Made by a program: the position numbers and the translations under genes. Below are positions 6,461 to 15,240 of a DNA stretch of 22,181 nt, piece after piece. Within the stretch, counting starts at the first letter, position 1; each line of letters opens with the position of its first letter. Below the pieces are notes generated by a model. That model had not been told where the DNA came from, ran no database searches, and was given only the letters and a program-made list of their open reading frames with translations. The stretch is from a virus, in IMG/VR virus record IMGVR_UViG_3300020185_000287, positions 1 to 22,181 of that record, one strand, 5' to 3'.

Positions 6461-7378
6461 TTAAGCTATTTTTTTAAATTCAACGTCGATCATTGAGTAA
6501 TCTACTAAGTCATAGCCATCAAACGGAATCACAGCTTCTTTAGGTATTTCATCAGACATAACACCTTGGAATATACCATCACCTATATTTTTGTCAATGT
6601 ACTCAAAAGAGTATATTTTCAAGCCATTATCAGAAACACCTATTGATTTTATGTTTTTCTTTAATCTTCTGTCTGAAAAACCTTTAGCAATACCACCAAT
6701 ACCGCTTGCTATACCTCCAATAGCTGCGCTTTGGTTCGATTTAGCTTGAGCTCTATTAGCCTCGGACTGCGCTTGTTGACCGGCTAATCGGTTTAACTGT
6801 TGCATTGTTCTATCTTCTTGTTGTTCAAATTGGTATGCCTCACCTTCAGCTTCCGCCATTTGAATTCTTTGTGCTTCTGACATTTCAATACCTTGTAATC
6901 TAGTAGCTTCAGCTACTTTTTTAGCTTGCAAAGCTTCTTCACCTTGAGCTGCTAATTTTTGATTATTAGCTTCTTGCGATTCAATACTAGCAGCGACGCC
7001 TTTTTTAGACTGCAAAGCAGCTTGAGCTAAAGCAGTTGCACCACCAGCACCTCCACCTGTAGCTCTTATAGTGTCTAAAGTATTAGCTAAAGCTATGTCA
7101 GCCTCTTCTATTTCAATTTCTGCAGCTTGAGTTGCAACTCCTAAGTTTAAATAAGGATTAGACATCATCCCAGACAAGTCCTCAGCCATAGAGCTTACGT
7201 CTTCAAAATTAGCGTAAGGATTTGGTATAGCCTGCCTATTTTTTTCTATGTGCTTTATTTCTGCTGCTCTACCTTTTGCGTCATTAGCAAATCCTTTTGC
7301 CGCTTGCTTTTCTTGATGTCCAGCTATTAAACCGCCACCTATAACTGCTGCACCCGCTATTGCTGCTACTACTGCCAT
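6461..7378 (-). CDS. Putative inner virion protein with C-terminal S74-type intramolecular chaperone domain
   Basis: A 305-aa protein. Residues 2-20 form a hydrophobic Ala/Gly/Val segment able to span a membrane. Residues ~80-215 are Ala/Gln/Glu-rich and helical. A second Gly-rich hydrophobic patch (about 216-234) follows. The last 71 residues start with SDRRLKKNIKSIG at Ser235 and continue with NGLKIYSFEY and FQGVMSDEI. This matches the start of the peptidase S74 / endosialidase intramolecular chaperone family, in which the Ser and Lys of SDxRLK form the self-cleaving dyad. The family usually sits at the C-terminus of fibres and spikes; here it follows a helical, hydrophobic body resembling a gp14-like inner virion protein. 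The ATG is 3 bases after the upstream stop. The domain call is fairly firm, the location in the particle is inferred, and the body could also be a tail-fibre adaptor. Confidence 0.8.
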   Translation of the reverse strand: MAVVAAIAGAAVIGGGLIAGHQEKQAAKGFANDAKGRAAEIKHIEKNRQAIPNPYANFEDVSSMAEDLSGMMSNPYLNLGVATQAAEIEIEEADIALANTLDTIRATGGGAGGATALAQAALQSKKGVAASIESQEANNQKLAAQGEEALQAKKVAEATRLQGIEMSEAQRIQMAEAEGEAYQFEQQEDRTMQQLNRLAGQQAQSEANRAQAKSNQSAAIGGIASGIGGIAKGFSDRRLKKNIKSIGVSDNGLKIYSFEYIDKNIGDGIFQGVMSDEIPKEAVIPFDGYDLVDYSMIDVEFKKIA

Positions 7379-7806: not shown

Positions 7807-9543
7807 TTAAGAAGAAGCTACGTATTTACTACCTACACTCCAAAGTTCTTTAGCGCCACCAACTTGAGTTATATCATCTGTAGACATGGTAACAGTTGCG
7901 AATCTACCTTTTATACCAGATACTTGTTGACCATATATAACCTCACCAGAAGTAGGCGTGCTATTATTATATATAATTGCATAGTATTTGTTTTCTTTAC
8001 GTTGAAAACCATAGTAATATATAGGTGGCGTAAGCGTAGTTGGAAACGTGTTTCCAGCAGAGTCATAAGCACCGCCTAAATAGCTCTTAACTGATATGCT
8101 TCCAGAAGCATTAGTTATATCTTGTGACATACCCCAATCACCCCATGGACTTGAGTAGTCAGGACCTTGTTTATCTGAAGTAAAAAGATCAACTTGCCAA
8201 CCATTATCACCCTCATAGTTTACTGTTTGAAAGTTTTTAGATAAGCTTGGTTGATCGTTTAATACAAAAGTTATTTTAGAAGGACTATAGATACCGTAGA
8301 AGTTACCTCTATTGAGTCCATCTACTTCTGAGTAGTGTTTGTATATCTTGCCTTCTTTAAAGCTATAAAAATCATTCTTTAAGCTAGAAATAAAAGTAGG
8401 TTTATATGTAAAATAACTAGTCCAGCCATTTATTCTTTCGTCAAACGCTAAAGTGTTGTAATTAGCAGACGAACCAGTGCCAACGTCTTCTGTCAAAGGA
8501 ACTGCCCACGTAGGTTTCTGCTGTATAGATAAAACGTAGTTTTTGTTATGTATATCGTAACCACCAATTAATACACCTTTAAGTGGTGTTGAAAAAATAA
8601 GTTCATCATCTGCTGAAACAACAATGTTTTTAGCCACAGTTATTTCGTTTCCATTTATGTCTATAACTATATTGTTTGGCTGCGCTATTCCGTTTAAAGT
8701 AAATGACATACCTTTTTGTATATTTTCTACTACGCTTGTTAAGGTTATGACGTTACTTACACCACTTAAAACCGTAGCTGGAGTATGAAGCGTAGAATAT
8801 TCTGGAAGACCACTTAGTTGATCTCTAAAATAATCAACCATTCCAACTGCAGATATTTCAGTTAAACCATCTTTAGAAAGCCTTAATACCACATTTCTAT
8901 CTTTATCGGTGAAGTATTTTTGGTAACCATAAACAGCAAAGCTTTCAGGGTTTCTACTTATACCATATTCTCCAGAATAAGCTGATATAGTTCCTATCAC
9001 AGCATTAGAAGCAGTTAAAGTACCTCCTCCTTCAGCGTTATATATTATATCTTTATTTATTGGAGCTCTGTTAACTTGGTTTTCTTGTAAAATAATCAAA
9101 TTAGTATCTTCAGCGTGTAGTTTTTGTATAGAGCCCTCAGCTGGATCAACGCTCTTGGTTATAGAGTCTCCTACGGAGAATTGATTAGAATTATTAACAC
9201 CTGTTCTAGAGTTGAATATTCCAGACCATATTAATGAATTCTGTCTATGTTGCTGCTGTGGATTTTCATCAACTAAATACGCCTTAACTCCAAAGTCTAC
9301 ACTAGTATTATTATACCCACCTCTAATTCTTGATTCTTCTAAGTAAAAACTATTATAAGCATCCGTATTACTAGCTGTGCCTGGAAAAGGACCTATAGCC
9401 TCGCTTATTTCTATATTCGCGTTATAAGGAAAACCTTTAGGCCAAACAGGATCATTTGTTTGTGTCACAGGATCTCCGGTAGCTTCTGTAACTTGTTTTA
9501 ACAAGAACGTGTTGTAATATGATATATCTAATGTTGCTGGCAT
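7807..9543 (-). CDS. Tail protein, probable second part of a nozzle/tail-stabilisation assembly
   Basis: A 578-aa, beta-rich protein with many Asn, Gly, Ser and Tyr residues and no membrane segment. Residues 69-95 (EESRIRGGYNNTSVDFGVKA) and 134-160 (PAEGSIQKLHAEDTNLIILQ) are motifs I associate with the C-terminal part of gp10/nozzle-type tail proteins in crAss-like and marine podoviruses. A propeller-like pattern of short Tyr-rich strands continues to about residue 500, with YGYQKYFTDKDRNVVLRLS and GGYDIHNKNYVLSI. It lies 18 bases downstream of the 1216-aa gene, which carries the typical nozzle N-terminus, so the two may together correspond to one larger protein in relatives. The start ATG is preceded by TTTTAAATAAAAACA with no Shine-Dalgarno. 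Tail assignment is fairly sure; the split-protein interpretation is inference from remembered family sequence. Confidence 0.75.
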   Translation of the reverse strand: MPATLDISYYNTFLLKQVTEATGDPVTQTNDPVWPKGFPYNANIEISEAIGPFPGTASNTDAYNSFYLEESRIRGGYNNTSVDFGVKAYLVDENPQQQHRQNSLIWSGIFNSRTGVNNSNQFSVGDSITKSVDPAEGSIQKLHAEDTNLIILQENQVNRAPINKDIIYNAEGGGTLTASNAVIGTISAYSGEYGISRNPESFAVYGYQKYFTDKDRNVVLRLSKDGLTEISAVGMVDYFRDQLSGLPEYSTLHTPATVLSGVSNVITLTSVVENIQKGMSFTLNGIAQPNNIVIDINGNEITVAKNIVVSADDELIFSTPLKGVLIGGYDIHNKNYVLSIQQKPTWAVPLTEDVGTGSSANYNTLAFDERINGWTSYFTYKPTFISSLKNDFYSFKEGKIYKHYSEVDGLNRGNFYGIYSPSKITFVLNDQPSLSKNFQTVNYEGDNGWQVDLFTSDKQGPDYSSPWGDWGMSQDITNASGSISVKSYLGGAYDSAGNTFPTTLTPPIYYYGFQRKENKYYAIIYNNSTPTSGEVIYGQQVSGIKGRFATVTMSTDDITQVGGAKELWSVGSKYVASS

Positions 9544-9561
9544 TGTTTTTATTTAAAATTA

Positions 9562-12500
9562 TTACTCAAAAACTACATATATACTGAAAGAAGTAGCGCC
9601 TATTTGGTCAGCAGTATCAATATCAATATCTACTGAATATGGATCATCGCTATGTGGTATTGCGGTTGTTATACCACCTACGAGCTCAGCGTTATTTGGC
9701 GGTGTGCCACCGGTGGTAGGGTCATAATTAACTCCAGGGTTACCTTTGTAAACATATATTCTAGCTGTCCTGCCTTCTTTGTTGTTATAAAAACCAACAA
9801 CAGCTTTAAATTCATCGTTTGGAAACGGACCAACTGTTGCTATATTACTGGCTTGTACAGCTGAAACAACATCGGTGTATGGTGGGCCTGAAAATAATAC
9901 CGATTGTTTAGTTAACTCTGAACTTGGATCCACCCATGTAAATTTTACTTCTCTCATTTCAGGATAAGGAGTTAGAGTAGATCCACTGTATTTATTTCGC
10001 CCGTAAGCTTTAAAAGCTAAAACTTGATCTGATGTTATAATTATTTGTAAGTCAAAAGTATCTGTATCTCCACCAGAGTCGGTTAAAGTTATAGGTATAA
10101 TGTAAGATTCTCCTCCTAAAACTCCGGAGTCTACAACAGAAACTATTCCACTAGTAGAGTTTATACTAAAACCATAATTCGTTGGACTAGTTCCAGGAGT
10201 ACCAGATTTTATAACATCTCCCATGCTCCACGCAAGCTCTTGCTCTTTAGTAGCTCCATCTGCCCCGACGTTAACTCCGTTTACACCTCCCATCGCAACT
10301 ACATTGTCGTTGCTGCCCTTAATGTAAGTTATTGCACTTGGACTACTAGGATTAGTTATTTCTGGAACTGTATTAGATAAGCTTCCAGTAAACTCCAAAA
10401 AAGTATTAGTATCCGCCACGCTATCGTAACACTCTACAGTAAAAGTAAAATTGTTTTTTGCTGGAGTTGATTTATAGTAAAAATAAGTATCACTACTTAT
10501 TGATAAAGTAAAACCATCGTTTCCTGACACAAAATCGTAGCAGCTAACACCTGATCTAGACTGGTTTGAGTCATTAAACTGACTTATAACCGCGCCATCA
10601 TCATCTAAAACACTAAATAAAGAGTATATTATTTGACCACTAGCAAAAGAATTACCTTCACTATCAATAGCTTCTCCAGATACTAATAGTTGCCCAGGTG
10701 CTTGACCTTCTGAATGTACGTAAGGGTTGCTTAATAATATAGACGCAGGTCCTTCAAAATCAACTTGAACTATTTTATTTAACTCAGAAATTAAACCAAC
10801 TGTACTTGTTTCCCAGTATATATCTAAAAGAGAAGTAACAGCTTCTGTTTCATAAATGCTAAGAGAGTCTCCGTATTCACTTCCAGGATCATCTGGGTCT
10901 AATGTTGAAAGTTTACCTATACTGCTGTTTGTTGATATTCTAGCTATAGAAGGATTTGTGTCGCTTTGATAAAACTCTACGTAATCTAAATCACCTAGTT
11001 GACCAGGTGAGTTTTTTATTGCAACGTAGTTAGTATCTCTAAGCGTAGCTATATTAGGTATTGAGTCCGGCAAGGCTGTTGGATAGTATTGAGTTGAAAA
11101 AGTACTATCTTGACCACCACCCGTGTAAGGTGCTACTCTACCGAATAAATTAACACTACTTCTATACTGTCTTTGATCAGGACCAACTTCGCTCAAATCT
11201 TTTGGAACTTTGTTTATGTTGTCACTAAATAAAACTATATTAGCTGTTTGACCCGCTTCTTCTGAAGTACCGCTTGGATTTAAAGAGGATCCATACGGAT
11301 AGCCATTTAATATACCAGGTAAATAAACATTGTAATACTCTTGCTCTGTTTGTTTAACTACTACTTTGTAGCTATACCAACCTAATGGGTTTGGATCGTA
11401 AACAGTCACCGTAAATGAACCGTTAGACCCAACACCTGAAGGTATTATAACATCGCCGTTAGTATAGCCAGTGCCTTGGTTATTTATTGTTACTGAAGTT
11501 ATTTCACCTGAAACATTTGTAATTATATCTACAGTGCATCCAGTTCCAGATCCTCCAGTTGTGCTAACATCTGTATTGGCAGAATACCCAGTACCAGCTT
11601 GGTTTATTATGGCTGCATCGACGCCTTTTAAGTTATCTTTGTAAATTCCGGGGTAACCAGTGCTTAAGTTTGGACTCACAGGTACAGCAGCTGTTCCGCC
11701 TTCTATTATATCTACTAAAATCTTTAGTTCGTAACCAGGAAAATTTAAAGCGTTTACATTTGAGTCTGCGTAAGGGACATATATCGTAGAACCTCCATAA
11801 AGCAAGTTGCCACTTGTCGTGCCAGAGTCCTTTGCTGAAAGTATAGCGGATGATTGTCTACCAAATCTATCAGCTAATATAAAAGCTGCTTGATAATTTC
11901 TATTTTGTTTTAAACTAGAGCTTGGGTATTCTATTTGGCTATAAACTCTTTCAACTGGAGTTAACACATTATCTTTAACGCCATAACCAACACCGTAGTT
12001 TAAAAAATCAGGTGGAGTTTGTTTATTGAAAAAATTACCATAAACAACTCTATTACTTATAATCTCTTGAGTTAAAGCTCTAATAGGCACAACATCGTAT
12101 ACTCTTGTACTTTCGCTTGAAGGTAGTGTTTTATATGGTTTTGTTGATATGTATTTGTATGAATAAACTAAATTATTTGTGTTAGCCTGCATTTGAGAAT
12201 ACACCGTAGCTGCTGGTATTGTCTCAACCACTTTAGTAGCTAAGCCATCAGATTCTTTATAAAGTATATCTAGACTAGATATATTTAAGTCTTCTATTGG
12301 ATTTTCTGTAGGAAATTTTATATTCAACAATATTTGAGTAACATTATTTTCCATAAAAGAAACTACAGTACTTCTATAAGTAGCTTCAGCGTCTTCGGTG
12401 TTAAAGTAACCCTGTTGTTTAGGTATAAAGCATATTTGAGTCCAAGGTGCTTGTAGAGAGTATTCACCATCATCAAACTTAAACCTATAGCTAAATCTAA

Positions 12501-13212
12501 CAAATTTGTCTGATAAAAGCTCTGGGTCACCGGCCCAGTTTTCATCATAATCAGGGTTTTCATAAGTTTCACTTCCTTCTTCAATATCTAGATACTGCTG
12601 AAATGGATTTGTCATAGTAGATTCACCCAAGTTGCCATCAGCTAAGTTGACTAAATTTATAGGTGTGTATGGGTAATATTTAGCTACTGATATTTTATCT
12701 TCAGTGTTATAGTAAGTAGAATTATTAGAAGCCGTAGATACATTTATTTTTCTAGGCTGATTCCTATTATCAGTAAAAAACAGCAAACCTTCTAAAACAT
12801 TAACACCTTGAACTGGACTATTTTTTGAAAAGTTTAAATAATAACCTTCAACTAGTTTTGTATATAAATTAGAAATACTATTGTATTTGTATATAAAACA
12901 ATTAGCTGTTGATGGCGCGAAATTAGCAATACCACTACTAGATGAGTCAACGTAGTCCGTTAAGAAAAGGTATATATCGTTTTGCGATTGATCTATAAAA
13001 TAACCTATCATATCCAAGTTTTGTATACCAGATATTTCGGTTATAGAAATCAAACTATTTCCTAGCACGTTTTGAACAGTACCTACATCAGAACCTTCAG
13101 ATCTACTTATAGCCACGTTTAACGCTTTTCTATATTCACCTTTAGGAACCAGTCTGTCATCGATGTCTTGGTTCATTTTGGATTTTATGAAAATGTTTTG
13201 AATTTCTGGCAT
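9562..13212 (-). CDS. Large tail nozzle/stabilisation-type protein (P22 gp10-like) with beta-domain inserts
   Basis: A 1216-aa protein. Its N-terminus (residues 7-52, including KMNQDIDDRLVPKGEYRKAL and SDVGTVQNVLGN) matches the hallmark start of tail-stabilisation or muzzle proteins of crAss-like and marine podoviruses, which close the short tail. Residues ~60-530 look like beta-propeller strands. Two copies of a GTGY module follow, with tyrosines at 543 and 583, exactly 40 residues apart. Residues ~860-950 resemble an Ig-like domain. Residues ~950-1060 look cadherin-like (INSTSGIVSVVDSGVLGGES, then ITLTDSGGDTDTFDL). A further beta domain ends the protein. The gene starts 6 bases after the upstream stop and is the longest complete gene here. 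Its inserted domains are the likeliest surface-exposed, host-contacting part. Nozzle role rests on the N-terminal signature and on position after the ring proteins. Confidence 0.8.
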   Translation of the reverse strand: MPEIQNIFIKSKMNQDIDDRLVPKGEYRKALNVAISRSEGSDVGTVQNVLGNSLISITEISGIQNLDMIGYFIDQSQNDIYLFLTDYVDSSSSGIANFAPSTANCFIYKYNSISNLYTKLVEGYYLNFSKNSPVQGVNVLEGLLFFTDNRNQPRKINVSTASNNSTYYNTEDKISVAKYYPYTPINLVNLADGNLGESTMTNPFQQYLDIEEGSETYENPDYDENWAGDPELLSDKFVRFSYRFKFDDGEYSLQAPWTQICFIPKQQGYFNTEDAEATYRSTVVSFMENNVTQILLNIKFPTENPIEDLNISSLDILYKESDGLATKVVETIPAATVYSQMQANTNNLVYSYKYISTKPYKTLPSSESTRVYDVVPIRALTQEIISNRVVYGNFFNKQTPPDFLNYGVGYGVKDNVLTPVERVYSQIEYPSSSLKQNRNYQAAFILADRFGRQSSAILSAKDSGTTSGNLLYGGSTIYVPYADSNVNALNFPGYELKILVDIIEGGTAAVPVSPNLSTGYPGIYKDNLKGVDAAIINQAGTGYSANTDVSTTGGSGTGCTVDIITNVSGEITSVTINNQGTGYTNGDVIIPSGVGSNGSFTVTVYDPNPLGWYSYKVVVKQTEQEYYNVYLPGILNGYPYGSSLNPSGTSEEAGQTANIVLFSDNINKVPKDLSEVGPDQRQYRSSVNLFGRVAPYTGGGQDSTFSTQYYPTALPDSIPNIATLRDTNYVAIKNSPGQLGDLDYVEFYQSDTNPSIARISTNSSIGKLSTLDPDDPGSEYGDSLSIYETEAVTSLLDIYWETSTVGLISELNKIVQVDFEGPASILLSNPYVHSEGQAPGQLLVSGEAIDSEGNSFASGQIIYSLFSVLDDDGAVISQFNDSNQSRSGVSCYDFVSGNDGFTLSISSDTYFYYKSTPAKNNFTFTVECYDSVADTNTFLEFTGSLSNTVPEITNPSSPSAITYIKGSNDNVVAMGGVNGVNVGADGATKEQELAWSMGDVIKSGTPGTSPTNYGFSINSTSGIVSVVDSGVLGGESYIIPITLTDSGGDTDTFDLQIIITSDQVLAFKAYGRNKYSGSTLTPYPEMREVKFTWVDPSSELTKQSVLFSGPPYTDVVSAVQASNIATVGPFPNDEFKAVVGFYNNKEGRTARIYVYKGNPGVNYDPTTGGTPPNNAELVGGITTAIPHSDDPYSVDIDIDTADQIGATSFSIYVVFE

Positions 13213-13218
13213 TTTATT

Positions 13219-14487
13219 CTAGTGTTTAATCTGTTTAGATTTACCTCTCATTACTTGAGTAATCTCGTCAATCTTTATATTTGATAAGCGAATCTTAGCG
13301 TTTCTAAGTTTAGCAGATTTCTCTCTCTTAAGTCTTTGAACAACATATTCAGGTTGATTAATTCTAGTAGATATGACAGCATGTAATATATAAGCATACA
13401 AAGCTTCTTCTGCCATTTTAGGAACTCTAGAGTCCATTTCGTAAGCTAAGCCATCTGATACGTATTCTAAAAGTATTAACCTATCAACTAAACCGCTTGA
13501 GAAAGACATTTTACCTTCTCTTTCATTTAGATTAAAATAACCATTTCTTTGAGCATACTGTGGATCTAGTCCGTATTTTTGCCCCCAGTCCCTACGTATT
13601 AAAGAACCATCTTCTTGAAAAGTAGCACCGTAAGAATTAGGGCTAGAGTCCGTGTCTGGGCTAGAGTTTAAGTAATTGTTTAAGTCTTCGTTTCCAGCGC
13701 TATGCCATCTTTCTTGTATAATAGAAGTTCCTTCTACATTGTTACCAAAATTATCTTGAGTTGGTATACCTGTAGAGTCTTGAACATTAGTGTAGTAAGG
13801 ACTGTTTGTTAAATTGTTTGTAGGATATATAATGTGTTTAACACCAAATCTGTCTACCCAAGAAGCTCTAACGTAGTTAACATAGTCTTGAGGAAGTGGA
13901 AGCGTTAAGCTCGGTGGTATTGTTAGTTCTGAAGTTTTAATGCTTTTTAAAGTGTCGAAGCTAAATTCTTGTAAACCTCTTTTTGCATGAAATATTAAAT
14001 CAGTTCTTTTAACACTAGGTATAAGTTTACCAGCTCCAACGTAAGCTATTAAAAAATTATTTATAATATCGTTTAAAGTAGTGTAAGCATAACCGCCATA
14101 GTTATCCTCAACTACTTGGCCATATGCTTTTTCAGTGTCATCATTACCATATTTACCACCTGTTAATATTTTTAACTGAACAACTATGTATAAATTACTA
14201 GCAGGTTCTGACCCAGCTGGAAAAGTTATAGTGTTGTTAGATACAAAAAACTCAGTTAAATACTCCTCGTAAGTACCAGGAATACCTGTTGGGCTAGTGT
14301 AAAGCTTGAAGTTATTAAGAGTGTATTCTGGTAAATTCTCATCCCAAGTTCCAAAGTATAGATCAGTATTGAAGTCTGTAGTAAAACCGGCAGCGCTATA
14401 GTTGTATCCTCTAAATTCTTGAGCACCTTCGTAGTATTGCCTAGCGTTCTCAGTTATTAATCCATTATTTTTTGGTGTTATAGCCAT
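13219..14487 (-). CDS. Ring/adaptor-like head-to-tail connector protein (tail-tubular/P22 gp4 class)
   Basis: A 422-aa soluble protein. The N-terminal ~130 residues are beta-rich and Tyr/Asn-rich (DFNTDLYFGTWDENLPEYTL). The core at 148-212 is the recognisable part: GAGKLIPSVKRTDLIFHAKR, then the helix QEFSFDTLKSIK, then PPSLTLPLPQDYVNYVRASW. I associate this segment with ring proteins of crAss-like and uncultured marine podoviruses, compared functionally with P22 gp4 or T7 gp11, which extend the portal channel into the tail. The C-terminal third is helical and basic (RLKREKSAKLRNAKIRLSNI), ending KSKQIKH. It begins 6 bases after the 248-aa gene and 6 bases before the nozzle gene, so the three are probably one translational unit. 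The leader is GTTAAAAATAA with no Shine-Dalgarno. The ring function is inferred from family memory and gene order. Confidence 0.75.
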   Translation of the reverse strand: MAITPKNNGLITENARQYYEGAQEFRGYNYSAAGFTTDFNTDLYFGTWDENLPEYTLNNFKLYTSPTGIPGTYEEYLTEFFVSNNTITFPAGSEPASNLYIVVQLKILTGGKYGNDDTEKAYGQVVEDNYGGYAYTTLNDIINNFLIAYVGAGKLIPSVKRTDLIFHAKRGLQEFSFDTLKSIKTSELTIPPSLTLPLPQDYVNYVRASWVDRFGVKHIIYPTNNLTNSPYYTNVQDSTGIPTQDNFGNNVEGTSIIQERWHSAGNEDLNNYLNSSPDTDSSPNSYGATFQEDGSLIRRDWGQKYGLDPQYAQRNGYFNLNEREGKMSFSSGLVDRLILLEYVSDGLAYEMDSRVPKMAEEALYAYILHAVISTRINQPEYVVQRLKREKSAKLRNAKIRLSNIKIDEITQVMRGKSKQIKH

Positions 14488-14493
14488 TTATTT

Positions 14494-15240
14494 TTAACTT
14501 TTTCCGTTAATTTCGTTTTTTTGAACTTCTTGAGAAGCTGCTTGCACTATCTGTGGGTCTCTAATTATCACACCTGAGTAAGACAGTATTTTTAAAATAA
14601 CGTTTGATTGCTCGTTGTCGTGTATTTCAAATTGAACAGAGTCATCTTCAAAGTATATATAAGGACCTGAAGTCCAAGGTCCACCACCTAACTGTTGAAA
14701 ACCCCAAACTACATTACTTGGTTTTTTAATGTAAGAAACAGATACATCTGATGTTATTGACTTAGGATGAACATGTATTCTTGTTTCACCGTCTTCAAGA
14801 CCGTTAATTCCTTGTTCGTTCTGGTCATATATATAAACCGGGAAATTAGTAGATGGTTTTGTTAAAGAAGATAAGTTTTGTAGTAATAATTCGTTTCGGT
14901 GAGTTCTTTCCACTTCAACTTCATCTTTGTATATAACAGTGCCTATTGTGTGTAGATTACTTGGTGGTAAAAAAAAATTTCCAGTTGCATCATAGGTACA
15001 TGCACCCACCGTCTTAAATATAGCTAAACTATTATCTATGTTTTTTTGCCTATCAGCGTATTCAGTGTCTGTTTGAGGTATTCGTAACTGTTGGTTTAAA
15101 GTGTCAAAATAACCTTCAAATATTTCTAATTGAACCTGAGTGGCTAGTTTATTAAACTCATCTGGAGTTATATACCCTCTTTGTTCTTTGTTGAGGATAG
15201 ATAAAACCGTTTGATACACAGTGTTTACGTTTATGGCCAT
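14494..15240 (-). CDS. Ring/adaptor-like connector protein, 248 aa
   Basis: A soluble protein starting with a helical N-terminal segment, residues 9-45: VYQTVLSILNKEQRGYITPD followed by EFNKLATQVQLEIFEGYF. This is a very common signature in marine podovirus contigs and crAss-like phages, usually labelled structural protein. The rest is beta-rich (FFLPPSNLHTIGTVIYKDEV, then HVHPKSITSDVSVSYIKKP) and ends in a helical tail with AASQEVQKNEINGKS. It is the first gene after the 71-base spacer that holds a hairpin, and it lies directly before the 422-aa ring-like gene. Size and position fit a head-completion or first ring protein below the portal. No catalytic motif is visible. The assignment as a ring protein is inference; assignment as a virion structural protein is firmer. 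Confidence 0.7.
   Translation of the reverse strand: MAINVNTVYQTVLSILNKEQRGYITPDEFNKLATQVQLEIFEGYFDTLNQQLRIPQTDTEYADRQKNIDNSLAIFKTVGACTYDATGNFFLPPSNLHTIGTVIYKDEVEVERTHRNELLLQNLSSLTKPSTNFPVYIYDQNEQGINGLEDGETRIHVHPKSITSDVSVSYIKKPSNVVWGFQQLGGGPWTSGPYIYFEDDSVQFEIHDNEQSNVILKILSYSGVIIRDPQIVQAASQEVQKNEINGKS

Follow-up and report, generated by a model that had tools for sequence, protein, structure and literature searches.

A crAss-like phage muzzle very probably carried by two adjacent genes, with a variable tail at the break

The window analysed here is the whole 22,181-base stretch of the virus record IMGVR_UViG_3300020185_000287 (IMG/VR), whose structural genes lie on the minus strand in the order portal, capsid protein, two tail genes, gene 1, and gene 2. 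The last two are adjacent open reading frames (ORFs) that very probably encode one crAss-like muzzle in two pieces, the division falling at a loop where a tail has also been attached. An earlier reading made from the letters alone (here, the sequence-only reading) had described both ORFs, and they are present on the minus strand with 1216 and 578 amino acids (aa) and 18 bases between them. The strings that it quoted were also found, KMNQDIDDRLVPKGEYRKAL in gene 1 and both EESRIRGGYNNTSVDFGVKA and GSIQKL...NLIILQEN in gene 2. The features of the two genes are as follows.

9562..13212, minus strand: gene 1, putative N-terminal chain of the split muzzle; ORF of 1216 aa with matches to the N part of PHROG 14478 and to single-chain homologues
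12736..13197, minus strand: gene 1 residues 6 to 159, predicted first propeller blades; aligned by hhalign with crAss001 gp44 7 to 149, before IG1
10765..13212, minus strand: gene 1 body, residues 1 to 816; collinear by BLASTP with the single-chain protein L312 up to residue 1244; the body-end profile ends at 816
9565..10764, minus strand: gene 1 tail, residues 817 to 1216; no counterpart in L312, variable in relatives, cadherin-like domains at ~820 to 1062
9544..9564, minus strand: gene 1 stop codon and spacer of 18 nucleotides (nt), TAA TAA TTT TAA ATA AAA ACA
7807..9543, minus strand: gene 2, putative C-terminal chain of the split muzzle; ORF of 578 aa with a match to the C part of PHROG 14478 and an alignment to L312
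9505..9540, minus strand: gene 2 residues 2 to 13, first strand; matches phi38:1 gp97 ~859 to 870 (hhalign and L312 alignment)
9175..9348, minus strand: gene 2 residues 66 to 123, candidate partner-dependent segment; conserved columns, low predicted local distance difference test (pLDDT) score
7870..9156, minus strand: gene 2 residues 130 to 558, predicted remaining blades and ring-joining end; hhalign to gp44 1056 to 1355 and structure match to 7qol
7972..8310, minus strand: crAss_MUZ_C domain (PF25729), gene 2 residues 412 to 524; 41.6 bits against a cut-off of 27
8575..8790, minus strand: extra domain inserted in gene 2, residues ~252 to 323; skipped in many relatives' alignments

As the sequence-only reading had proposed, the two genes fall into one protein class. 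PHROG 14478, a profile of 1474 aa, matches both far beyond chance, gene 1 with an E value of 2.4e-44 over the whole protein (best stretch, profile positions 2 to 182) and gene 2 with an E value of 3e-39 (positions 920 to 1096). The correspondences of gene 1 residues 6 to 159 and gene 2 residues 130 to 558 to the muzzle of crAss001 were obtained by hhalign against gp44 and seven homologues (probability, 96.6; E value, 6e-10; and probability, 98.3; E value, 2.4e-14, respectively). Gene 1 carries the N-terminal propeller sequence of the muzzle family, and gene 2 carries the C-terminal blades and the ring-joining end with PF25729. The family feature of a single polypeptide is absent, there being two ORFs with three in-frame stop codons between them. 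Searches of the PDB sequences with either protein alone, and with a gene 2 profile, found nothing.

In the accessible part of the description of gp44, the protein is given as a seven-bladed propeller with an IG1 insertion at residues 163 to 292 and an IG2/crass insertion at residues 318 to 1021, and the muzzle is regarded as the gate retaining DNA and cargo in crAss-like virions (PMC10172136). The same portion ascribes variation in muzzle length to insertions in the crass and IG2 regions and not to a split (PMC10172136). No report of a split muzzle was found in the open literature that could be searched in part, subscription papers and preprints lying outside the search. The crAss001 protein (7qok/7qol) resembles the window's genes in its first blades, last blades, and C-terminal end by profile, but it is one chain of 1371 aa, whereas the window has two chains and a 400-aa tail at the cut.

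The two proteins correspond to successive parts of single-chain homologues. L312 (L numbers denote surveyed loci; L312 is on the same contig as L235) is a single chain of 1898 aa similar in sequence to the window's proteins. Gene 1 residues 6 to 816 are collinear with L312 residues 7 to 1244 in three BLASTP pieces, and gene 2 residues 3 to 578 align to residues 1256 to 1897, leaving 11 residues between the halves. Gene 1 residues 817 to 1216 have no counterpart, and the tail falls at the junction. L313 and L314 show the same join, the body end running into the gene 2 start, and with L312 they make three distinct single-chain contigs. In a profile alignment with gp97 of Cellulophaga phage phi38:1 (Pervagoviridae), gene 1 residues 1 to 466 were placed on residues 1 to 402 and gene 2 residues 67 to 578 on residues 875 to 1322, with no match for the gene 1 tail. 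Gene 2 residues 2 to 13 match gp97 just upstream of the latter block (score, 18.6, against at most 16.9 in 100 column shuffles; hhalign probability low, at 11.5), suggesting that the chain restarts right after the loop. The proposal of one propeller-type nozzle split by domain insertion thus agrees with what was found, namely, collinear, nonoverlapping parts of single-chain homologues and extra domains exactly at the break.

The gene order of the window is that of phi38:1, in which one gene encoding 1324 aa fills the place of genes 1 and 2. The position expected of a muzzle, after ring or tail-tubular genes in the structural block, is seen in this order and in the PHROG matches of the two genes upstream; the gp44 gene of crAss001 also comes after a tail tubular/ring gene.

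13219..14487, minus strand: virion structural gene upstream; PHROG 13977, same place as phi38:1 gp96; a ring/tail-tubular role is suggested by gene order
14494..15240, minus strand: virion structural gene upstream; PHROG 14543, same place as phi38:1 gp95; a ring role is suggested by gene order

Elsewhere in the window, positions 6461 to 7378 encode a virion protein of 305 aa with a weak match to Peptidase_S74 (chaperone of endosialidase) at residues 235 to 264, under the Pfam cut-off.

The final survey comprised 389 loci, including the window. Loci were chosen by similarity to the window and selected relatives, and the scans kept at most the best 80 of 417, 181, >593, and 110 candidates; the counts are therefore not population frequencies. 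The N part and the C1 part lie in different ORFs in 251 of the 389 loci, with C2 either next to C1 or outside the contig. In another 53, N and C1 share an ORF and C2 lies in a second; 29 have N and C1 with C2 not found, 37 are without one part, 17 have all three parts in one ORF, and 2 are broken three ways. Dropping identical C1 domains left 294 distinct loci. Of these, 207 have two genes as the window does (206 if the unclear L302 is set aside), C2 is separate in 46 (including L003, a frameshift) and not found in 26, 13 are single, and 2 are broken three ways. Some contigs are represented twice (e.g., L015/L249), and the distinct counts drop identical C1 domains or gene 2 starts while near-copies stay. 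L302 (631 and 2128 aa; 412-nt gap) is in the class totals but is excluded from the 206, and L003 is kept in the totals for a separate C2. The latter is Maribacter phage Panino, whose nozzle is annotated as two genes; it was rejected as a split because a frameshift lies inside the conserved part (9200 to 9400) and coding continues in another frame. In L160 and L200, too, the break falls within a coding region, which carries on in a different frame.

The sequence-only reading had held that relatives always encoding two proteins, with no single-chain homologue, would tell against one divided protein. The close relatives examined are nearly all two-gene, but single-chain homologues do exist, namely, phi38:1, elemoF, eight Crassvirales, and L312 to L314. 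All eight of the Crassvirales examined, namely, phi14:2 and seven phages of gut bacteria or from gut samples, carry a single annotated muzzle gene, although cr109 and cr273 do so only if stops are recoded, in-frame stops being present when they are read with table 11. The gut crassvirus muzzle genes of L211 (3884 to 7996) and L212 (3524 to 8311) show such stops under this table, which recoding would account for. Crass-like capsid and single-chain muzzle genes also occur on long bacterial scaffolds (L309 and L310), possibly as prophages.

A second split form was found in MW202828-like phages (L004, 13644 to 15000; L125 to L204), where the last part of the muzzle has its own gene of ~265 aa, in most cases with a further ORF in between. 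The first chain corresponds to phi38:1 residues 1 to 1073 and the separate gene to residues 1077 to 1323. As in the window, the muzzle is broken and extra sequence follows the break on the first chain, but the break (phi38:1 1073/1077) is later. An ORF of at least 90 aa lies between the two parts in 45 of 52 such loci, and the ten intervening ORFs listed are unlike in length (183 to 559 aa). Of the seven loci with none, six have a first chain of 1805 to 1910 aa and genes that adjoin or share a single base, as though the extra part had been joined to the first chain; the other, L145, has a 1266-nt gap with no ORF of at least 90 aa in it. Breaks resembling this form are present in L307 and L308, which come from bacterial assemblies. 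The latter is an 837-kb scaffold of Aquimarina longa whose crass-like capsid and muzzle genes possibly belong to a prophage.

The muzzle-domain tree grouped its 79 two-gene rows with the single-chain L312 to L314 in one clade (Shimodaira-Hasegawa-like approximate likelihood ratio test [SH-aLRT] support, 99), to which the single-chain L301 and L303 were sister. This tree had 108 rows thinned from 340, with L003, L160, L200, L048 (gene 1 broken), and L302 left out. L312 to L314 were also within the two-gene group in a capsid tree of 75 rows thinned from 188. A two-gene-only clade was rejected by the capsid data (p = 0.015; 71 rows after four long rows were dropped) but not by the muzzle data (approximately unbiased test p-AU, 0.41), and re-fusion in L312 to L314 is therefore likely but not proven. 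Both trees are quick searches with SH-aLRT as their support, the root was chosen, and the tested group was named after the tree had been seen. The simplest reading is one split followed by one re-fusion. In the split loci L214 and L221, plausibly a step towards re-fusion, the sequence after the body is short.

It is highly improbable that the break is artefactual or conceals a single gene, through sequencing error, frameshift, stop recoding, an intron, an intein, or ribosomal bypass. The accessible part of one report does describe how introns, inteins, and recoded stops can interrupt genes of crAss-like phages (PMC7886860), the distant relative Panino looks split yet is a frameshift, and the two ORFs of the window share a frame. 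However, they are divided by three in-frame TAA codons within 21 nt, and a single miscalled base cannot explain the break because of the TAA TAA TTT TAA stretch at the gene 1 stop; a frameshift or sequencing error was rejected for the window. The same break recurs in 206 of the 294 distinct loci. Reading TAG as Gln leaves it in place, and an interrupting intron, intein, or recoded stop is countered by the 18-nt spacer with its three TAA codons, by the lack of any Rfam family match in the window, and by the ATG and N terminus of gene 2, which are conserved among relatives. Gap lengths between the halves occur in all three phases (92, 61, and 51 among 204 loci), and in three loci another ORF lies between them (L029, 159 aa; L037, 324 aa; L248, 296 aa). 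Bypass was judged against from the variable gap and gene 1 ends.

It is equally hard to credit that these are two unrelated tail proteins, or paralogues from a duplication, that only resemble parts of one protein. The large extra domains on gene 1 and the cadherin matches of its model speak for such a reading. Against it, both proteins match different collinear parts of the same single-chain proteins, and they have no similarity to each other (best BLASTP E value, 0.51), which also leaves unsupported the gene duplication that the sequence-only reading had offered as its alternative. An ancestral two-gene form, with single chains as later fusions, seems slightly less remote but still improbable. 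The single-chain L312 to L314 inside the two-gene group suggest that fusion happens, but all eight Crassvirales examined are annotated as one gene (cr109 and cr273 with recoded stops), phi38:1, elemoF, and the sister loci L301 and L303 are single-chain, and another group is broken at a different point.

The extra cadherin-like domains predicted at the end of gene 1 were borne out by a profile search of PDB sequences (best E value, 1.3e-7) and by structure comparison (Z, ~11; 184 residues aligned; root mean square deviation [rmsd], 9.1). The body end was recognised in all 202 distinct complete gene 1 proteins and is followed by 18 to 1013 aa (median, 503). The tail is less conserved than the body and gene 2. 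Mean identities of gene 2, body, and tail were 0.76, 0.71, and 0.37 in 39 pairs with gene 2 identity of 70 to 80%, 0.85, 0.77, and 0.50 in 72 pairs (80 to 90%), and 0.93, 0.91, and 0.80 in 14 pairs (90 to 97%), in a comparison that covers the 48 of 88 loci in which the body-end motif was found and includes near-copies.

The best structure match of the gene 2 model was the crAss001 muzzle (7qol; Z, 15.2; 298 residues; rmsd, 4.5). The model also aligns with P22 gp10, T7 gp12, and similar podovirus nozzles at Z values of 8 to 11, and unrelated propellers reach a Z value of ~8. These nozzles are single-chain proteins and, to our knowledge, are without this distal region. Modelled alone, gene 2 had a pLDDT of 72.9, with residues 68 to 123 below 50, and 27 of the 58 columns from 66 to 123 are conserved at ≥90%, compared with 122 of 578 overall. 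Similarly, residues 1 to 13 and 26 to 53 of the gene 1 model fall below 50, and 22 of its first 53 columns are conserved, compared with 191 of 1200. These stretches are candidate contact segments, although shallow alignments could also depress the confidence there. The extra domain of gene 2 (8575 to 8790) shows a structural likeness to a portion of the Acinetobacter phage Mystique tail tube (9n71; Z, 8.8; 69 residues).

Several observations weigh against a divided muzzle with an adhesive tail. Of the two single-protein structure comparisons, that of gene 2 pointed to the muzzle, but the best matches of the gene 1 model were cadherins, with other adhesion folds near the top. No muzzle was among the 50 structure matches listed for gene 1, an absence that carries no weight against its muzzle identity. 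The middle of gene 1 (residues 376 to 461) aligns very weakly by hhalign with gp44 294 to 396 in the Ig/crass region (probability, 0.2). The split loci L214 and L221 have just 19 and 18 aa, respectively, after the body, and the tail is therefore not required to maintain the split. The tail is probably adhesive, as judged from its fold and variability. Folding of both chains into one propeller, their co-assembly, and their function may be supposed from the sequences, the models being of single chains.

The spacer before gene 2 often carries a short element, which was spotted by eye and then counted, so that its definition is post hoc. AAGTRAT occurs within 30 nt before the gene 2 ATG in 147 of 207 two-gene loci, distinct by the first 120 residues of gene 2. 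By gap length, it was found in 140 of 173 loci with 14 to 60 nt, 6 of 8 with >60 nt, and 1 of 26 with ≤13 nt; the window is without it. A long form, AAAYAAGTRATWAT, lies within 40 nt before gene 2 in 116 of the 207 loci, and the motif starts 15 to 16 nt before the ATG in 124 of 150. In an earlier set of 96 loci, AAGTRAT preceded 68 gene 2 starts and none of the 96 gene 1 starts, 0 of 376 upstream genes, and 7 of 270 downstream genes, and it occurred in 40 of 4800 random 30-mers. Across 16 contigs (~945 kb), AAAYAAGTRATWAT had 15 occurrences, of which 12, in 12 of the contigs, were before gene 2, and the reversed pattern had none. Among the loci with an ORF between the halves, the element is present in L029 and L248 and absent in L037; in the second form, 0 of 52 loci have it ahead of their separate C2 gene. 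A Shine-Dalgarno site did not seem to fit, by position and free A/G. Our best guess is a translation signal.

Taken together at the level of sequence, the complementarity of the halves, the exact cut site, its recurrence in a large set of relatives, and the tail at the cut point to an ancestral single chain that would have been cut at a loop of the distal region, with a variable, probably adhesive tail placed on the new C terminus of the first half. Each protomer of the hexamer would then consist of one gene 1 chain and one gene 2 chain, the latter translated from its own ATG. Gene 1 would supply the first propeller blades, the immunoglobulin (Ig)/distal part, and the tail, and gene 2 would add the strands that return, the other blades (the gate blade among them), and the domain that joins the ring. 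A free C terminus may let a large surface-binding tail grow or be exchanged without threading back into the propeller. The accessible part of a report on split mitochondrial cox2 (insertional fission) offers a likeness in its complementary chains and other sequence at the break, but the protein is unrelated and is a precedent only (PMC5374615).

More tentatively, and with considerable doubt as to the whole, the muzzle might be a two-chain gate by design, the propeller of each protomer being shared by two polypeptides. The cut would give a free end where adhesive modules grow and swap, the gene-2-linked element would set the supply of the second chain, and when the tail touches the host, the first chain could be pulled and the propeller opened. 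The broken muzzle would then have arisen at least two times, at two different loops.

The two-gene nozzle characterises a large phage group known from database contigs, with one exact loop cut, and both halves may be overlooked or wrongly named where annotation looks for a single long muzzle gene. The break also points to where these phages vary the tip, since extra sequence or another ORF lies at the cut in two groups, and it suggests a route for mounting new surface-binding parts on a conserved machine. If the propeller is shared by two chains, this would constrain how the gate opens and would provide a natural split protein for testing the gate.

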